Shown here piece by piece: positions 19,597 through 34,039 of a stretch of DNA of 57,682 nt. The stretch is taken from positions 1 to 57,682 of the IMG/VR virus record IMGVR_UViG_3300029319_000053; one strand, given 5' to 3'. This DNA comes from a virus. Both the position numbers and the translations under genes were made by a program. The number at the start of each line of letters is the position of its first letter. Positions within the stretch are counted from its first letter, which is position 1. The notes below the pieces were generated by a model. The model worked only from the letters and a program-made list of their open reading frames with translations, searched no databases and was not told the origin of the DNA.

Positions 19597-21348
19597 TTAT
19601 ACAGTATACACTTTTAATGGTTTCTCTTTACCTTTTACTTGAATCTTTCCGTGTGGGGAACATTTGTCCACTTTTTCTGCTGTACGTTCTCCAATAAGAA
19701 TATCCACTCCATATTTTTTAGTTGCACTTTCTAATCGTGCAGCTATATTCACAGCATCTCCTATAGCTGAATAATCAAATCTTGTATTACTGCCCATGTT
19801 TCCTACTACAGCTTCACCCGTATTTATACCTATACCTATGGCAATTGGTTCAGGCAATTCTTTCTGCAGCATACGCATTGCCGTGCGCATATCACGAGCA
19901 CAGGCGACAGCACGTTGTTCATGTTTATCAATCATTAGGGGGGAATTGAATATGGCCATACATGCGTCGCCTATGAATTTGTCCACCATCCCACCGTGGG
20001 CCTGGATGCACGTAACTTGTTCAGTTAATACTCTATTCATTATTTCTGTTACTTGTTCAGGTTCTAACTTTTCAGATAAGTTTGTAAATCCCCTAACATC
20101 AGTAAACAAAAACGTGCAAGTTCTACGTTCTCCTCCTAATTTAAGTAAGCTAGGATCTTTTTGTAATCGTGCAACTTGTCTGGGATCCAGATAGTGCTCG
20201 AACTGTTTTTTTATCTGTTGTCTTAATTTATATTGTTCCCCAAACCTTAACCAAAATTCTTGTACGGATGTAAGTGTTATAGCTACTGCGCTATAACTAA
20301 AGTCTATAAGTATATTATTTCGTACAAACCATACTGCAGCTATAGCAATACTTGTATACAGAACAATCATACCAACCATAGTGCCTGCAACGGGTAAACT
20401 ACGTATTATAATTATGCTTAATATTAAACATCCTATCAGTATAAGTAATTCATATAATAGGCTTGCACCCGGTATTTGAGGCACATTTACTGTTAAACTT
20501 TCAGCCATTGCAGCTTGTACTTCATGCGGATACAACAACCCAGCTGGCGTAGCTATTTGAGGCATGACACCTTTTGCAGTCACACCCACAAACACAAACC
20601 TATCTTTTACATCCATCTCTTGAAGCGTAGTTCGTGGAGTATCACTCCATGTTACCCATCGTCTTCCTATTTTATCTACTGGTATTTGTGCATAATTAGG
20701 TAAAGTAAGCTCTACAATCTCACTCTTCTGGCCCTTAATAATGTACGTATCTGACCCAGATATCACCTTCATAACTTCCATACCAAATGCCGGCGTCCAA
20801 CCATCTGGTGTTTGTAACAATAAAGGTAATCTTCTTACTAATTTATCTACATCTGTTCGTGCAACAGCCAAGCCCTGGCTGCTAACATTTGCAAGTTCGT
20901 ACGTATTTTGTATCACACCCTGTGCAGGAATCGCTTGTACGGGAATCCCATCGCCTAATATAACTGTGCCTGTTGTTGGGGGGTAGTTCCCATTATCATT
21001 TTCAAACATTGCAAGAACGCTTGGTGTGCCTGCCAACGCATCAGCAAAAGCTTTATCTCCACCAAATCTATCTGGTTGAGGAAAGGCGACGACCCAACCC
21101 ACGCCCCAAGCACCTGCCTCTATGAGGTCTGAATGAATTTCAGCAAGTTCTTGACGAGGGAACGGCCAGCCGCCCATCATGGAAACATCTTCTTCTGTTA
21201 TATCTAGTAATACAAAAGTGCCAGAAGGTTCAGGTATCTGCACAAGAGCATCAAATGTTTTTAACTTAAGGACTTCGAGAGCTTGCCAATTAAATAATAA
21301 TGGCATACATAGTATTGGTATGCTAAGTAACGAAATCCATTTCTTCAT
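19597..21348 (-). CDS. Membrane CHASE2-adenylate cyclase
   Basis: The 583-residue protein begins with an anchor (residues 5-20), followed by an extracytoplasmic CHASE2 sensor (FDALVQIP, WPFPR at 61-65, FPQPDRFGGD at 89-98). Three membrane segments span about 298-365. A class III nucleotidyl cyclase domain follows from about 405. The metal-binding Asp residues (D417 in FTDVRGFT, D461 in GDACMAIF), the adenine-selecting Lys457 and Asp525, and the transition-state Asn534 and Arg538 are all present, so an active adenylate cyclase is expected. ATGA couples it to the FecR gene. Membrane sensing linked to cAMP synthesis is rare in phages; recent transfer from a bacterium is likely, as FecR/CHASE2-cyclase pairs are common there. 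Confidence 0.92.
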   Translation of the reverse strand: MKKWISLLSIPILCMPLLFNWQALEVLKLKTFDALVQIPEPSGTFVLLDITEEDVSMMGGWPFPRQELAEIHSDLIEAGAWGVGWVVAFPQPDRFGGDKAFADALAGTPSVLAMFENDNGNYPPTTGTVILGDGIPVQAIPAQGVIQNTYELANVSSQGLAVARTDVDKLVRRLPLLLQTPDGWTPAFGMEVMKVISGSDTYIIKGQKSEIVELTLPNYAQIPVDKIGRRWVTWSDTPRTTLQEMDVKDRFVFVGVTAKGVMPQIATPAGLLYPHEVQAAMAESLTVNVPQIPGASLLYELLILIGCLILSIIIIRSLPVAGTMVGMIVLYTSIAIAAVWFVRNNILIDFSYSAVAITLTSVQEFWLRFGEQYKLRQQIKKQFEHYLDPRQVARLQKDPSLLKLGGERRTCTFLFTDVRGFTNLSEKLEPEQVTEIMNRVLTEQVTCIQAHGGMVDKFIGDACMAIFNSPLMIDKHEQRAVACARDMRTAMRMLQKELPEPIAIGIGINTGEAVVGNMGSNTRFDYSAIGDAVNIAARLESATKKYGVDILIGERTAEKVDKCSPHGKIQVKGKEKPLKVYTV

Positions 21349-22433
21349 CCTGACCCCTGTGTGATTGTAATAGTAGAATTACCTCCACCATTAACTACAA
21401 TCTGTTGGTATTTACCATCCTGTATTAAGATAATAGTGTAACCTTGAGCACTGTTTACCGTCAACTGTGCATTTTGATTGACCTTTCTTTGGAATGCAAT
21501 TTGTTCGCCTTGCAATAAAGTAATTATTTGAGTTTCTAAATCTTGTCCTATTTCTGTGCCTTGTATTGAAGTACCTACAGTCAATTTTTTAGTATCTAAC
21601 TCATCTATTTCTTCTATAATTTCTAATAAATCTTCAAAAAAGTTTATATCTAAAAAGTTTATATCTAGCTCTGTAAACTCTAATGTATCCTCAGCTAAAT
21701 AATCTTGCTCTAGCTCATTAAACTCTAAATAGTCTATATCTAATATAGCTCCGCTATCTGCTACGGACGTTGTGGATGACTCTGTGGATAAGTCTTGTTC
21801 GTCCGGAGGCGTAACAATAAGCATGTTATCTATTACATCTAAAGTAAGATCAAGTATTACAGGTTTGCTTGGGGTTGTTTCCCATACTTCTACAGTTGTA
21901 GCTTGGTAGGGTTTGTTAAGAGTAACGCTACCTGTAGCAGTAGTAACAAGTATCTCACCACTAGAAATACCGTTAGCGTCAGGTAATAAAATAATGAGAG
22001 AACGCCCCAGTTCATCAACCGTGCATGTAAAATCTGTACCTCTGATAGCAATATCAGCGGTAGGTGTGGATAGTCTAATATTCTTTTTATCAATTTTGCC
22101 TAACCTACTGCTTATAAATCTAGCCGTGCCACTTGCAAATTGCAGAGCCATTTTACCTTTTGAAGGATCCGGGTCAAATATATATTCAGTAATAACTAAT
22201 TTAGAGTTTTCAGTTAAACGTACAATAGAGTTGTCCAGGAAAGTAATTCCTACACGGCCCGCATTAGTGCGGACATCGTCCATTTGTTGAATGCCAAAGT
22301 CTAACTCAGCCCCGTAAGACTTGTCTCGTATTACTTCAGCAGAGCCATTTAGCTCAGATATATCTCCAATATTAGCAGCTTGTGCTTGTACCGCCGTCGT
22401 TTTGAATAACGCACACAGTACCATTATTGCCAT
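21345..22433 (-). CDS. Secreted FecR-domain protein
   Basis: The chosen start (Met at 22433) gives a Sec signal peptide MAIMVLCALFKTTAVQAQA. A FecR domain follows, with NIGDISELNGSAEV and the family hallmark STPTADIAIRGTDF near 122-135. Then comes an unusual acidic, Leu/Phe-rich stretch (about 226-286, e.g. LEFTELDINFLDINFFEDLL) and an end reading GGGNSTITITQGSG, which resembles a curlin repeat. Starts up to 22550 keep the frame open, but overlap the curlin gene by 180 bases. FecR domains act in the periplasm in signal relay. Bacterial genes of this kind often sit beside CHASE2-cyclases, as here. Confidence 0.82.
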   Translation of the reverse strand: MAIMVLCALFKTTAVQAQAANIGDISELNGSAEVIRDKSYGAELDFGIQQMDDVRTNAGRVGITFLDNSIVRLTENSKLVITEYIFDPDPSKGKMALQFASGTARFISSRLGKIDKKNIRLSTPTADIAIRGTDFTCTVDELGRSLIILLPDANGISSGEILVTTATGSVTLNKPYQATTVEVWETTPSKPVILDLTLDVIDNMLIVTPPDEQDLSTESSTTSVADSGAILDIDYLEFNELEQDYLAEDTLEFTELDINFLDINFFEDLLEIIEEIDELDTKKLTVGTSIQGTEIGQDLETQIITLLQGEQIAFQRKVNQNAQLTVNSAQGYTIILIQDGKYQQIVVNGGGNSTITITQGSG

Positions 22434-23070
22434 TAGATATAATTTTAAGCCAGTCCCTAGCCAATGTAGATGATTGCGTAATGTTAAAAGTCCTGCTGTT
22501 GCCTGTTTGGTCAAGATAGAAATATCCATTTTGATATCCACTTCCGTCAAATGTTATTGAGTTAGAGTCCCCATCCACGTCTACATAAGATGTGCCTAGG
22601 TCATAATCAATGTCAAAATCAAACTCGTTGCTATCTCCATTAATTATCCAGTCTAAGTCAAGTGTCGAAGCTAAAGCATTAGTACCAACATTTAAATCAA
22701 AGTCGTTACTAGAACCAGTTACGTCTACATTGTAGTTACCTGAATCTGCGCCATATGTATTGGTTGGGTCTACTTGTATATCGAATACGTTGCTATCTCC
22801 ATCAAACTCAAAAAAGCCTGTAATGCTATCTCCTAAGATATCACCTAAGAATTTGTTTGAGCTACCTATCTGATTTATATCTAAAGTAAGATTTAAACCA
22901 TCAAGATCGAGCGCGGTCATAGTACCACTAACAGCATTTAATCCACCGATGATGTTAGATGAACCTAATTGTTCTATATCTATGTTTGCGTTATTCCCGG
23001 ACTGGTCAACATATACTTCATTGTCAGCATACAAAAAACCAACTAATAGTAAGGGTAAAAGTTTTTTCAT
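22372..23070 (-). CDS. Secreted curlin-like repeat protein (CsgA/B-like)
   Basis: A short Sec signal peptide (MKKLLPLLLVGFLYA) is followed by eight or nine imperfect repeats of about 20-25 residues, each with a (Q/D)-x-x-G-x-S-N core: IEQLGSSN, INQIGSSN, FDGDSN, VTGSSN, INGDSN, VDGDSN, LDQTGNS. Curlin repeats have Q-x-G-x-x-N at the same spacing. The first two and the last match well. The middle ones have Asp in place of Gln, making the protein acidic. With csgG and csgF directly upstream, it is the obvious candidate substrate for export and surface fibre formation. It ends with two cysteines (TVCVIQ, SC). GGAGTTATAA precedes the ATG. Confidence 0.8.
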   Translation of the reverse strand: MKKLLPLLLVGFLYADNEVYVDQSGNNANIDIEQLGSSNIIGGLNAVSGTMTALDLDGLNLTLDINQIGSSNKFLGDILGDSITGFFEFDGDSNVFDIQVDPTNTYGADSGNYNVDVTGSSNDFDLNVGTNALASTLDLDWIINGDSNEFDFDIDYDLGTSYVDVDGDSNSITFDGSGYQNGYFYLDQTGNSRTFNITQSSTLARDWLKIISNGNNGTVCVIQNDGGTSTSC

Positions 23071-23882
23071 TTATAACTCCAATATCCAGCTTGTTCACCC
23101 TCCTTGATAATTTCTAATACGGCTGTTTCTATGGCAGAACGCAAAGCAAGTCCTCCAGACTCATTTCGCACCACACCACTTTCTATCTCTACTAATTCAG
23201 TACCAGCTTCAATAAAACGAAACACGTCGTCTGTTAATGATACACTAAGAATGGTCTTAGATACTAGTTTTTCAAGTAACACCTGACCTGAGTTTACAGA
23301 CACAAGACGCAATTGTATGGTTATTGAGTCTGTTCTATAAGCCTTAGATATACCAATCCCTAAATATCTAGCACCTGCCCCACCAGATGTTACATTAGAT
23401 TCATATGAAACTACTGACCCTTCTAATAATAAACCTGCAAACAACAAAGTACCTATCTTTGTATTGTCTTTATTCTCAGTTCTACCACTACGGATTATCT
23501 GGCGTTCTTTAGTTAAGTTATCTAACCCACCTCTTTCTACTACGGTAAAAAAACCCCCATTTTGTTTACATGCGTCTTTAAGAGCTTTGATAAGATAGGC
23601 GCTAGGTTGTTGAGTTATAGCGGTAGAGAAGCTAGCATACATAGAATTACTAAGTCTTTGACCTGTTTGGTCTGTAAATGCGCTTCCGTACACAGCTACA
23701 GTTGGTTTTCTTTCAGGCGTACGGCATTCTTGCAAGTCTGTTATAACTAGCTCTTCTATTTGTGCTGATTCGATTTTCCGTATCGGGGCTATGTTATTTT
23801 CTATAGGGTCTTCTATTAATAACGAAGCGCAACTAGAAAGTAAAAGAACCGATAGGTACCGTAATTTCTGTAGTATTGCCAT
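23067..23882 (-). CDS. csgG: CsgG, curli secretion channel lipoprotein
   Basis: The 271-residue product (E. coli CsgG has 277) has lipobox LSSC with Cys18. It aligns well with CsgG through VVERGGLDNLTKERQIIRS, GGAGARYLGIG, TKTILS-like SKTILSVSL and FRFIEAGTELVE, up to the C-terminal YWSYK. In E. coli CsgG forms a nonameric outer-membrane pore. Its constriction residues Tyr51, Asn55 and Phe56 align here with Ser, Ser and Phe (SNSMYASFSTA), so the ring may be wider or differ in selectivity. ATGA links it to the curlin gene. The upstream csgF gene overlaps its start by 50 bases. Confidence 0.95.
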   Translation of the reverse strand: MAILQKLRYLSVLLLSSCASLLIEDPIENNIAPIRKIESAQIEELVITDLQECRTPERKPTVAVYGSAFTDQTGQRLSNSMYASFSTAITQQPSAYLIKALKDACKQNGGFFTVVERGGLDNLTKERQIIRSGRTENKDNTKIGTLLFAGLLLEGSVVSYESNVTSGGAGARYLGIGISKAYRTDSITIQLRLVSVNSGQVLLEKLVSKTILSVSLTDDVFRFIEAGTELVEIESGVVRNESGGLALRSAIETAVLEIIKEGEQAGYWSYK

Positions 23883-24351
23883 CTGGGTCTGTTATCTTTA
23901 AGGTTATCATTGTACCATCTTCACTTACACTATACTCAATAGTATTACCCATCAATTCAATGATACCTTGTGTTTGAGGAGTGTCTCCAAACAAAGCATC
24001 TACTAGTTGTCTCGATAACTGTGCATATATTCTAGACTCTAAGTTACGTATAAATCTTGCAAGCGTAGTGTTTTCTGCATCTCTTTTAAGCTGTTCTTTA
24101 TAAGCTTTTAGTTCTGCTTTAATATTTTCTTTACGATTAAACTCTTGGTTCTCAATAGTAAGATAATGTGAACTAGTGCCTACTCCACTAAAACTAGGGT
24201 TTTTAAAGCCATGCACTATTTGATCTGCTTTTAAATTTAAACCTATTATTCCTAAAAATAAAATAAGGCCTATTACTAATACAACTTTATACAGAACTAT
24301 TTTTTCTGCATATTCTTTTTCTAATTGTTTTTTAGTCTTTTCTTTGGTCAT
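23833..24351 (-). CDS. csgF: CsgF, curli assembly factor
   Basis: The start chosen is ATG at 24351, after GGCGGATAGAG; a TTG start at 24369 is possible. After a charged N-terminus (MTKEKTKKQLEKEYAEK) comes a hydrophobic segment ending LNLKA, then QIVHGFKNPSFSG, the match to CsgF FxFRNPNFGG. The second half carries LESRIYAQLSRQLVDALFG and the closing strand pair VSEDGTMITLKITDPDGNTT, as in CsgF. In E. coli CsgF docks into the CsgG pore and helps nucleate fibres. The N-terminal extension (172 aa here versus 138) is unusual and may keep it membrane-anchored. It is the first gene of the curli cassette, overlapping the holin-like gene by 20 bases. Confidence 0.85.
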   Translation of the reverse strand: MTKEKTKKQLEKEYAEKIVLYKVVLVIGLILFLGIIGLNLKADQIVHGFKNPSFSGVGTSSHYLTIENQEFNRKENIKAELKAYKEQLKRDAENTTLARFIRNLESRIYAQLSRQLVDALFGDTPQTQGIIELMGNTIEYSVSEDGTMITLKITDPDGNTTEITVPIGSFTF

Positions 24352-24682
24352 CTCTATCCGCCTTGGCAATTTTATTGCTATCTATAAGTTGAGGCACGCC
24401 AAGAATAGTTTTAATCAAAGTGTCTTGTCTTATAATTTCATTGTCTAAACTACGCACCCTGTCTATTAATGCTACTAAAATACCATGCTGTGAGTCAAGT
24501 TTAGTGCCAAGCCTTTGTTCTACGGCGCTTATTTGTTCTGCTACTTTATCATCGACAGTGTCTAATTTTGTTTCCATACCGTCAACAATACGCATTATTA
24601 ATTTATAAATAAACCACCCTAAACCTAGAGCAGCTGCAATAGGAAAACCTACTTCTTGGATTACAGTGACTGCTGATTCCAT
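24332..24682 (-). CDS. Holin-like membrane protein with coiled coil
   Basis: The start overlaps the previous stop (TGATG). One N-terminal membrane segment (about residues 8-30, VGFPIAAALGLGWFIYKLIM) is followed by a coiled coil of about 70 residues (DDKVAEQISAVEQRLGTKLD). This build matches phage holins of the BhlA/UviB kind or antiholin-like proteins. It lies between the 3-TM holin candidate and the curli genes, so it is probably part of the lysis group. Confidence 0.7.
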   Translation of the reverse strand: MESAVTVIQEVGFPIAAALGLGWFIYKLIMRIVDGMETKLDTVDDKVAEQISAVEQRLGTKLDSQHGILVALIDRVRSLDNEIIRQDTLIKTILGVPQLIDSNKIAKADRDDQRKD

Positions 24683-31246: not shown

Positions 31247-34039
31247 TTAACTTTCTAGAGCAGCTACTTTTGCTTCTAATTCTTGTATTGCTTTTACTAA
31301 TATAGGTATTAATTTTTCATATTTCATGCCATATTGTTTGCCATCTTGTGATAAAGATATAGTTAAATTACTATTATTATCTTTATTATAACCTGCTGCT
31401 TTTTCTAAAACTTCAACTTCTTGTGCTTTAAAACCAATATCTAATTGAGCTTCTTTATGAGTTCCATCATGTGTAATGGAGTTTAAATCTGTATTTGGGT
31501 TTTTATCCCAATCAACATATTTACTTCTTTCGTCCCATTTAAAAGTATAAGGTTTTAATTGTTTTACAAAATTTAGTCCTATATCTAAATCTTTAAAATC
31601 TGTTTTATCTCTTTCATCAGAAGTAACTGTCAAAGAAACTTTACAACCAAGCTCTATAATGTTGTTATTTCCTAAACATACTCTGTTACTATGACTAGTC
31701 AAATTACCAAGTGGTGAATCTGAACGACCTGCTCTATTTCCAAGTAATAAATTATTAGAACCAGAAGTTAAACTTTGTCCTGCTAATCTACCCACACAAG
31801 TATTATTGTCGCCTGTTGTTAAATCTTCACAAGATTCAGAACCTATAGCAACATTATCATCACCAGTTGTAAGGTTTGTACCAGCAGCATTACCTAATCC
31901 ACAGTTCCCTGCACCTGTAGTTAAAGCGTCAAATACTTGGTAGCCTACACCTGAATTACTTGCTCCACTTGTAGCATTTGTTAAAGCCTGTCTGCCTATG
32001 GCTACATTATTATCTGCTGCACAATCTTGTAAGGCTTGATAACCTACAGCAACATTATCATTTCCACCTGTACCTAGTTGCATGGCTTCTCTGCCTAAAG
32101 CTGTATTACCAGTACCAGTAACATTTTGTGCAGATGTTTCACCAAGAGCAGTATTACTATGACCAGTTGTAGTATTAAGTAAAGATTTACGACCAATTGC
32201 TGTGTTGTTTGAAGCAGTCGTATTAGCACTAAGAGCATCATTACCGACAGCTGTATTTTCAGCACCAGTCGTATTTGCATCTAAGGCTTGATGACCAACA
32301 GCAGTATTGTTTGTAGCTGTCGTGTTAGCAAGTAACGCGTTAACTCCAACAGCCGTATTGTTTGAAGCTGTGGTGTTAGAACCAAGAGCTGATGTGCCAA
32401 CTGCCACATTATAAGAACCAGTTGTGTTTGCATCTAATGCATTGCCACCTAAAGCTACATTTTCAGTACCAGTTGTTATTAGTTTACCAGCGTTTGCTCC
32501 AACTCCTGTATTGAAATCTGCAGTGCTTGCAGATAAAGCATTTGTTCCTAATGCTGTGTTATAACTGTTAGTAACATTTGCATCTAAGGCAGAATGACCA
32601 ACAGATGTGTTAAGTGTACCTGTTGTATTTAATGCTAGAGCATTTTTTCCTACTGCTACATTATGATTAGCTGTGGTATTAGCACTTAAAGCGTTTTGTC
32701 CAATAGCTGTGTTATCTGAACCTGTGGTATTAGCATCAAGAGCAGCATACCCCACTGCGACATTCTCTGAACCTGTAGTGTTGACTGCTAGTGCTGTATG
32801 TCCAAATGCAGTGTTATTATCTGCTGTAGTATTAGCAGATAATGCTTCTACCCCCATAGCTGTATTTCTAGTACCAGTAGTGTTTGCATCTAAAGACAAA
32901 GCACCAACTGCCGTTAATTGGTCTCCTGTGGTGTTTAATTTTAAAGCTGAAGCACCAACTGCTGTGTTATTACTCGCTGTTGTATTTTTATTTAATGCTT
33001 TAAATCCTATACCTGTATTTGCATCAGCAGTTGTATTTTCTTCTAATGCTGCTAACCCTATGCCTGTATTAGAATGTCCGTCTGTATTTGCAGTAAGTGA
33101 TGATTCACCAACAGCAGTATTATTTGAAGCTGTAGTATTAGCTGTTAAAGCACTTTTACCAACTGCAACATTTGAAGCACCTGTGGTATTCGCCAATAGA
33201 GCTGCATTACCAACTGCTGTGTTAGAATCTGCAGTAGTATTATTTTCTAAAGAATTAGCACCAACAGATACATTACCTGTTCCTGTTGTGTTTGTTCTTA
33301 ATGCATCTTTGCCTATAGCAACATTATTACTGCCTGTTGTATGGTCTTCTAATGCTTTATAACCTACTGCTGTATTACTATCGCCTGAAGTTAAAGCTGA
33401 AAACACATCAACACCCAAAGCAGTATTAAAATTAGCTGCATCTATTGTGCCTGTAGCATTATCACCAACCATTATAGAATCAGTACCAAATGTTTTGAAT
33501 GTTGGTCCACTTGCAGGAGCATCTTCCCATGCGACACCACTTCCTGTTGATGTCATTACTTGACCATCAGTTCCTTGGGCTCCACTTATTAAATAGTTTG
33601 TTGCATTTACTGAACTGTTAAATGTTGCAGCGCCACCTTCAGATATATCAAGATGTAAAGCTGTAATAGTTGAACCACCATCAGAGCCTTTAAACCTCCA
33701 ATCTTCATCGCCTGTATTGAGCAAGAAATCAACACCATGTGATTCATGTTTAATTTCAAATACAGCATTTCCGCCTTCATGGAATTTCCAATCATCACCA
33801 TCTGCATCAAGAATGATATCTCCAGCTGCATCTATTGTAAGATTACCTGTAGAACTTATTTGAGAAAAGGTTGGTGTAGATCCTACAGTTTCTATTAGGT
33901 CGGACAATAAAGCTTTCTTCAAAGCATTATCTGTAGCATCGAAGATAAGCATATGGTCAGATCCAACAGCTGTAACTTCAGTCTGTGTTGAGATAACTGA
34001 GGGGTCTAAGTATTCGCCATGTATCTTTGTTTTTGCCAT
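31247..34039 (-). CDS. Tail fibre with tandem 17-residue repeats and S74 chaperone end
   Basis: The 930-residue protein has a short N-terminal attachment part and beta-rich segments (to about residue 210). Then come about 32 tandem 17-residue repeats of the form N-(T/V)-A-(V/I)-G-x-x-A-L-x-x-N-T-T-x-x-x, which resemble YadA/Hep_Hag left-handed beta-roll repeats. The C-terminus is a peptidase S74 intramolecular chaperone (SDERDKTDFKDLD, later IGFKAQEVEVLE) with a coiled coil. Such fibres trimerise and shed the S74 part by self-cleavage at the Ser before Asp-Glu-Arg. Repeat number may vary by recombination. It is the longest of three fibre genes here. Confidence 0.9.
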   Translation of the reverse strand: MAKTKIHGEYLDPSVISTQTEVTAVGSDHMLIFDATDNALKKALLSDLIETVGSTPTFSQISSTGNLTIDAAGDIILDADGDDWKFHEGGNAVFEIKHESHGVDFLLNTGDEDWRFKGSDGGSTITALHLDISEGGAATFNSSVNATNYLISGAQGTDGQVMTSTGSGVAWEDAPASGPTFKTFGTDSIMVGDNATGTIDAANFNTALGVDVFSALTSGDSNTAVGYKALEDHTTGSNNVAIGKDALRTNTTGTGNVSVGANSLENNTTADSNTAVGNAALLANTTGASNVAVGKSALTANTTASNNTAVGESSLTANTDGHSNTGIGLAALEENTTADANTGIGFKALNKNTTASNNTAVGASALKLNTTGDQLTAVGALSLDANTTGTRNTAMGVEALSANTTADNNTAFGHTALAVNTTGSENVAVGYAALDANTTGSDNTAIGQNALSANTTANHNVAVGKNALALNTTGTLNTSVGHSALDANVTNSYNTALGTNALSASTADFNTGVGANAGKLITTGTENVALGGNALDANTTGSYNVAVGTSALGSNTTASNNTAVGVNALLANTTATNNTAVGHQALDANTTGAENTAVGNDALSANTTASNNTAIGRKSLLNTTTGHSNTALGETSAQNVTGTGNTALGREAMQLGTGGNDNVAVGYQALQDCAADNNVAIGRQALTNATSGASNSGVGYQVFDALTTGAGNCGLGNAAGTNLTTGDDNVAIGSESCEDLTTGDNNTCVGRLAGQSLTSGSNNLLLGNRAGRSDSPLGNLTSHSNRVCLGNNNIIELGCKVSLTVTSDERDKTDFKDLDIGLNFVKQLKPYTFKWDERSKYVDWDKNPNTDLNSITHDGTHKEAQLDIGFKAQEVEVLEKAAGYNKDNNSNLTISLSQDGKQYGMKYEKLIPILVKAIQELEAKVAALES
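31735..33385 (-). repeat. Tandem 51-bp imperfect repeats inside the fibre gene
   Basis: About 32 units, each coding 17 residues, follow one another with diverged DNA but a constant protein core NTAVG-x-x-AL-x-x-NTT. The period is in frame throughout. The plus strand carries long open frames over this stretch only because of the repeat period. Not a CRISPR array: there are no unique spacers. Confidence 0.85.

Follow-up and report, generated by a model that had tools for sequence, protein, structure and literature searches.

The window, the whole 57.7 kb stretch of DNA from an IMG/VR virus record (38.5% GC), carries a curlin-like gene that is coupled to csgG and csgF. Selection on this gene is purifying, the encoded protein is a relative of curlin, and a beta-solenoid is its predicted fold. 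We consider it reasonably probable that this protein is an exported, late-made and degenerate curlin subunit of a phage type VIII (curli) secretion system, which stacks end to end.

Genes of the cluster are all encoded on the minus strand and overlap one another, in the order CsgF (23833-24369; PF10614, E 4.4e-15), CsgG, the outer-membrane curli export channel (23067-23882; PF03783, E 1.2e-49), the curlin-like protein (22372-23070; 232 aa, degenerate CsgA/B-like by its open reading frame, profile matches and AF2 model), a FecR-domain protein (21345-22433; PF04773, E 1.8e-12) and a CHASE2 plus adenylate/guanylate cyclase protein (19597-21348; PF05226, E 6e-31; PF00211, E 5.7e-22). This is the pelagiphage T8SS order CsgF-CsgG-CsgA/B-FecR-AC, with the curlin-like gene encoded together with CsgG and CsgF. 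The csgG and csgF genes overlap (23882-23067 vs 24369-23833), and the start codon of the curlin-like gene overlaps the csgG stop in an ATGA. From this gene order and coupling we infer that the curlin-like protein is a substrate of the adjacent CsgG/CsgF channel. The likely start of the FecR-domain protein, ATG 22433, was set by comparison with relatives. Curlin_rpt finds one place only in the whole record, and because the FecR and cyclase genes overlap, there is no room for a second curlin gene between them.

Tail, endolysin and holin-like genes lie directly upstream of the curli cluster in the same orientation, which makes late expression likely; a holin-like gene with three TM segments adjoins it. 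The cluster also adjoins a gene for a 116-aa protein (24332-24682, minus strand), probably with one membrane segment and a coiled coil, which comes before csgF and is its neighbour in the majority of the loci fetched. Judged by position, it is the counterpart of the "histidine kinase" neighbour in PMC9599517 but differs from it, as no kinase domain was found in Pfam or NCBIfam; it shows a weak holin-family match (phrog_1296, E 0.019) and looks like a membrane-anchored coiled coil. The portal and DNA polymerase are nearest, among deposited phages, to Pseudomonas phage KPP25 and its relatives (35-41% identity). Further away, a 930-aa tail-fibre-like protein (31247-34039, minus strand) has dozens of short N-T-A-x-G repeats, and its C-terminus resembles by eye a self-cleaving chaperone domain.

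At its N-terminus the FecR-domain protein carries a hydrophobic leader, and NCBIfam relates it weakly to the Leptospira surface proteins Lsa33 and LipL45. Rather than regulating genes, it may therefore be a partner that is secreted or sits at the surface. The C-terminal tail of this protein (YTIILIQDG...VVNGGGNSTITITQ) is similar to curlin by eye, with no curlin match in 44 members; against the curlin profile it scored 8.1, below the best shuffled control (10.5). The AF2 model places five short strands at residues 303-347 with pLDDT of about 75, in a whole model of only 54.6, and the curlin likeness of this tail is regarded as an unproven lead.

Relatives of the curlin-like protein are found in viral contigs, in at least about 600 stretches, and 206 unique proteins were extracted among the matches listed. 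The first-pass annotation had suggested a distinct phage curlin branch, and these relatives bear it out, although the branch is already in the literature: phage curli clusters including a curlin-repeat protein were described in marine phages (PMC7029224, PMC9004378, PMC9599517). Almost every fetched locus that covers the full region has this gene order, and the curlin-like gene keeps its place after csgG and before fecR. The median dN/dS of the curlin-like gene is 0.11 (168 pairs), and its relatives are uniform in length, in pI (about 4) and in number of Cys. In 194 window-type loci showing FecR and cyclase (same-contig duplicates included), no second curlin gene lay between the two; the two counted exceptions in this census appear, by id range, to be HTVC008M and Melnitz (L161, L162). 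About half of the HTVC008M-type loci do have a second one.

The genome scan for bacterial relatives gave 11 loci, among which L243-L246 hold bacterial-type curlin genes, L239, L240 and L249 hold window-type phage clusters and L241-L242 hold HTVC008M-type clusters. L239, L240 and L249 are labelled as Neomarinimicrobiota, Maricaulis and Pelagibacter MAGs, with CsgG 54-85% identical. Since they carry phage-type clusters, L239-L242 and L249 look like binned phage contigs, and for L239, L240 and L249 we think it likely that phage contigs were binned with bacteria.

The open reading frame is real, and it begins with a hydrophobic leader of about 15 residues (23026-23070, minus strand; MKKLLPLLLVGFLYA), which is probably a Sec signal peptide and is matched with low pLDDT at residues 1-13. 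The reported repeat with a G-x-S-N core is also present far beyond chance: there are 6 copies of G-[DSN]-[SGN]-N where 0.39 would be expected, and 9 of hydrophobic-x-hydrophobic/Q-x-G-[DSN] where the expectation is 1.0; neither count was reached in any of 20,000 shuffles.

Several profile comparisons agree with the proposed relation to curlin. Pfam Curlin_rpt (PF07012) matches 22 of 46 members at E<=1, the best at 1e-5 and above the cut-off; the window protein alone reaches 16.8 bits (cut-off 20.7), and 20.9 bits together with its neighbours. The NCBIfam CsgB model matches residues 158-225 (E 0.00098). When a bacterial curlin profile was used, each third of the protein beat 60 of 60 shuffles, most strongly the N-terminal third (25.6 against at most 14), while the middle (9.5) and C-terminal (10.9) thirds were closer to the shuffled maxima (7.7 and 8.6). 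The middle region also gave sub-threshold DUF3060 matches. Searching the family profile against all PDB chains gave curlin 8c50 as the best match, with an E of 0.014 that is not significant alone; a direct phmmer search with the protein itself gave no hits among PDB sequences.

As for the fold, the AF2 model, built with 46 relatives (rows from fetched viral and genome loci), agrees with the suggested beta-solenoid: it predicts an all-strand solenoid of 14 strands beginning at residue 18-21 (pLDDT 83.4, pTM 0.78), with no helical cap. Foldseek gave no PDB match to the model at E<=0.001. The hits in structure comparison were two-sheet solenoids and beta-helices with a wide range of functions; they support the fold but not a function. 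The VIA matches are SufB/SufD-type helices (Z 17.3, rmsd 2.8); CsgA 8enq could be aligned only with an rmsd of 8.7. These matches suggest a right-handed model. We do not claim handedness as a novelty, because a sparse alignment such as the one used here is known to produce this artefact for curlins (PMC10192328).

The curlin motif is N-$-Psi1-$-Psi2-$-Q-x-G-x-x, with the Gln pointing inward two residues before the Gly (PMC10192328). Read in this register, the curlin-like protein has 16-17 short strands, and Gln is kept at motif position 7 in strands 1, 2, 4, 14, 15 and 17. Strands 5-12 have I, F, V, V, V, I, I and V there, strand 13 has G and strand 16 has S. Among 41 non-redundant window-type relatives, the Gln of strands 1, 2, 15 and 17 is present in all, and strands 5, 6, 8, 10, 11 and 12 are hydrophobic at position 7 in every one; strands 7 and 9 are mixed, and in some relatives strand 9 has Gln. 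The HTVC008M-type group (33% identity) shares this pattern, apart from a Ser in strand 10 and a Cys in strand 7. In seven bacterial curlins taken from the genome scan, Gln fills 58 of 75 equivalent sites, and the 206 relatives have it at 400 of 1,111 sites two before Gly, the rest being V, I, Y, W, G, A and others.

The first-pass annotation had proposed Asp where classic curlin has Gln, but Asp occurs at 0 of these 1,111 sites, and at none of the position 7 sites of strands 5-12 in the 41 non-redundant relatives. In FEFDGDSN, VDVTGSSN, WIINGDSN and VDVDGDSN the residue at the Gln position is F, V, I and V, respectively, and the Asp of the middle repeats of the window protein are at Gly-1, Gly+1 or outward positions. 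The earlier register was therefore off by one, taking the Asp at Gly-1 or Gly+1 for the Gln site, and the swap is rejected.

What the sequences do indicate is a patterned loss of the Gln ladder, confined to the middle, with canonical ends, and conserved across the phage family. The N-terminal canonical repeats (residues 17-72; 22855-23022, minus strand) hold Gln23 and Gln34, which are invariant, and Gln67, which is mostly kept. The middle repeats (residues 73-180; 22531-22854, minus strand) are hydrophobic at the inward Gln position, with Asp-rich loops and outward faces. The C-terminal repeats (residues 181-232; 22375-22530, minus strand) hold the invariant Gln199 and Gln223 and a pair of Cys, Cys220 and Cys232. 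All 206 unique relatives have exactly two Cys, which probably form a short disulfide staple. The pair is C-terminal and 12 residues apart in the window group (22375-22413 in the window), but mid-protein and about 9 apart in the HTVC008M group. The Gln kept only in terminal strands, the invariant Cys pair and the hydrophobic middle argue for selection as a folded solenoid, as opposed to a decaying remnant.

We propose that the curlin-like protein is made late, with the co-directional tail, endolysin and holin-like genes, would be taken across the inner membrane by Sec, would leave the cell through CsgG/CsgF in the outer membrane, and would fold outside. Subunits would stack head to tail by their terminal strands, where the invariant curlin Gln (and Asn) motif is kept; in the middle turns a hydrophobic core would replace the Gln ladder, and their acidic surface would suit seawater. 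The fibre may then coat or link infected cells and debris, before lysis or as it happens, and its effect may be sibling capture or the blocking of competing phages, as proposed by others; sibling capture, blocking of other phages, uptake and lysis control were suggested as roles for phage curli (PMC7029224, PMC9599517, PMC9004378). End-to-end stacking fits the Gln kept in the terminal strands and the absence of a predicted cap, and the Gln of strands 1, 2, 15 and 17 are invariant in two phage groups about 33% identical. On the other side, the Gln ladder stabilises the stack in bacterial curlins (PMC10192328), and most of the middle of the window protein is without it; no clumping was reported with the related phage Melnitz (PMC9004378); and the window-type clusters appear to hold one curlin gene, compared with CsgA and CsgB in E. 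coli. A narrower proposal, to which we give a fairly low probability, is that a block-type solenoid is the sole subunit, with canonical Gln-bearing ends docking head to tail, a hydrophobic core in the middle, where the Gln ladder is absent, and a disulfide staple whose position shifted between phage groups. If this is true, the block-type phage fibre would be physically unlike bacterial curli, in phages of a host lineage reported to be without curli of its own.

The same observations could be read differently, with the protein being a secreted solenoid that does not polymerise and is kept soluble as a monomer by its degenerate middle and disulfide staple, serving as an adhesin, a mask of the superinfection receptor or a plug of the CsgG pore. 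That strands 5-12 have no Gln ladder throughout the family would suit it, as would the Cys pair adjoining the C-terminal edge in the window group, the single curlin gene and the lack of reported clumping. But the invariant curlin Gln at both ends is what a stacking face needs, the model has no cap element, and the Cys pair of the HTVC008M group is away from the end, and we think this monomer rather unlikely. Still less likely, in our opinion, is that the cluster controls lysis through CsgG/CsgF, which would form a regulated pore and have the curlin-like protein as no more than a ligand or gate. This role was proposed for Melnitz (PMC9004378), and in the window the cluster adjoins the holin-like gene and the gene with one membrane segment; however, the proposal assumed that csgA/B was missing, and Melnitz has two genes annotated as curlin-associated repeat proteins. 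The fetched loci also keep the curlin-like gene in its place, with csgG and fecR on either side, which speaks against this role too.

The protein is acidic as first noted, with 30 Asp and a calculated pI of 4.05, and every one of the 206 unique relatives is strongly acidic. This is not peculiar to the phage branch, as a Bdellovibrionales curlin is equally acidic (net charge -16 vs -14 per 100 residues). DGDSN or NGDSN occurs in three loops of the window protein. The loop position x10 is D or S/G/T/N; Asp is found at three of four x10 sites in 29 of 46 members and is absent from arcs 6, 8, 10 and 12 in 7 of 46. Conserved Asp ligands in successive turns, as in a calcium solenoid of RTX or antifreeze type, were not seen: the loop and outward Asp vary with Ser, Gly, Asn or Thr, so that acidity is conserved and specific ligands are not, and a required calcium site is unsupported. 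It is thus very unlikely that Asp in the DGDSN loops hold calcium between the turns and so drive the exported protein to fold, even with the three loops, the general acidity and a fold match to the calcium-dependent antifreeze solenoid 3p4g (Z 13.0, rmsd 4.8 across 178 residues), since a likeness of solenoid fold says nothing on function and a bacterial curlin reaches the same acidity.

E. coli curli share the repeat motif, the CsgG/CsgF export and the solenoid with the window system; their repeats keep Gln, there are two subunits, CsgA and CsgB, and CsgE is present. Closer to the window is the HTVC023P-type pelagiphage cluster of Wittmers et al. 2022 (PMC9599517), with the same order of CsgF, CsgG, CsgA/B repeat protein, FecR and adenylate cyclase. 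These phages have 58.8 kb and 42.1 +/- 6.4% GC, with which the size and GC of the window fit, suggesting a phage of the HTVC023P type. A second curlin gene is frequent according to the same paper, and none is found in the window; the consulted portion of that paper does not describe the repeat chemistry.

Pelagibacter phage HTVC008M gp016 (33% identity) and Methylophilales phage Melnitz gp101 (26% identity) are in the same cluster position, with Gln at both ends and a mostly hydrophobic middle. The two phages differ from the window as myophages, each with a second curlin gene. In HTVC008M this second gene is gp018 (L161 7708-9030, annotated as hypothetical), whose product joins a PA14 domain to curlin repeats and is possibly a curli-tethered adhesin.

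Phage-encoded curli are widespread in ocean viruses, and with the conserved pattern found here, fibre formation becomes testable with one small protein and point changes. The consulted portions of the phage-curli literature mention neither the conserved, patterned Gln-ladder loss nor the two invariant Cys nor the layout with a single curlin gene. The degenerate (D-class) curlins of bacteria have N/Q columns substituted, including by hydrophobic residues, in a beta-solenoid (PMC10192328), as in the window protein, which amounts to a variant of these described curlins; its family differs from them in a loss that is patterned and conserved, limited to the middle and bounded by canonical ends.
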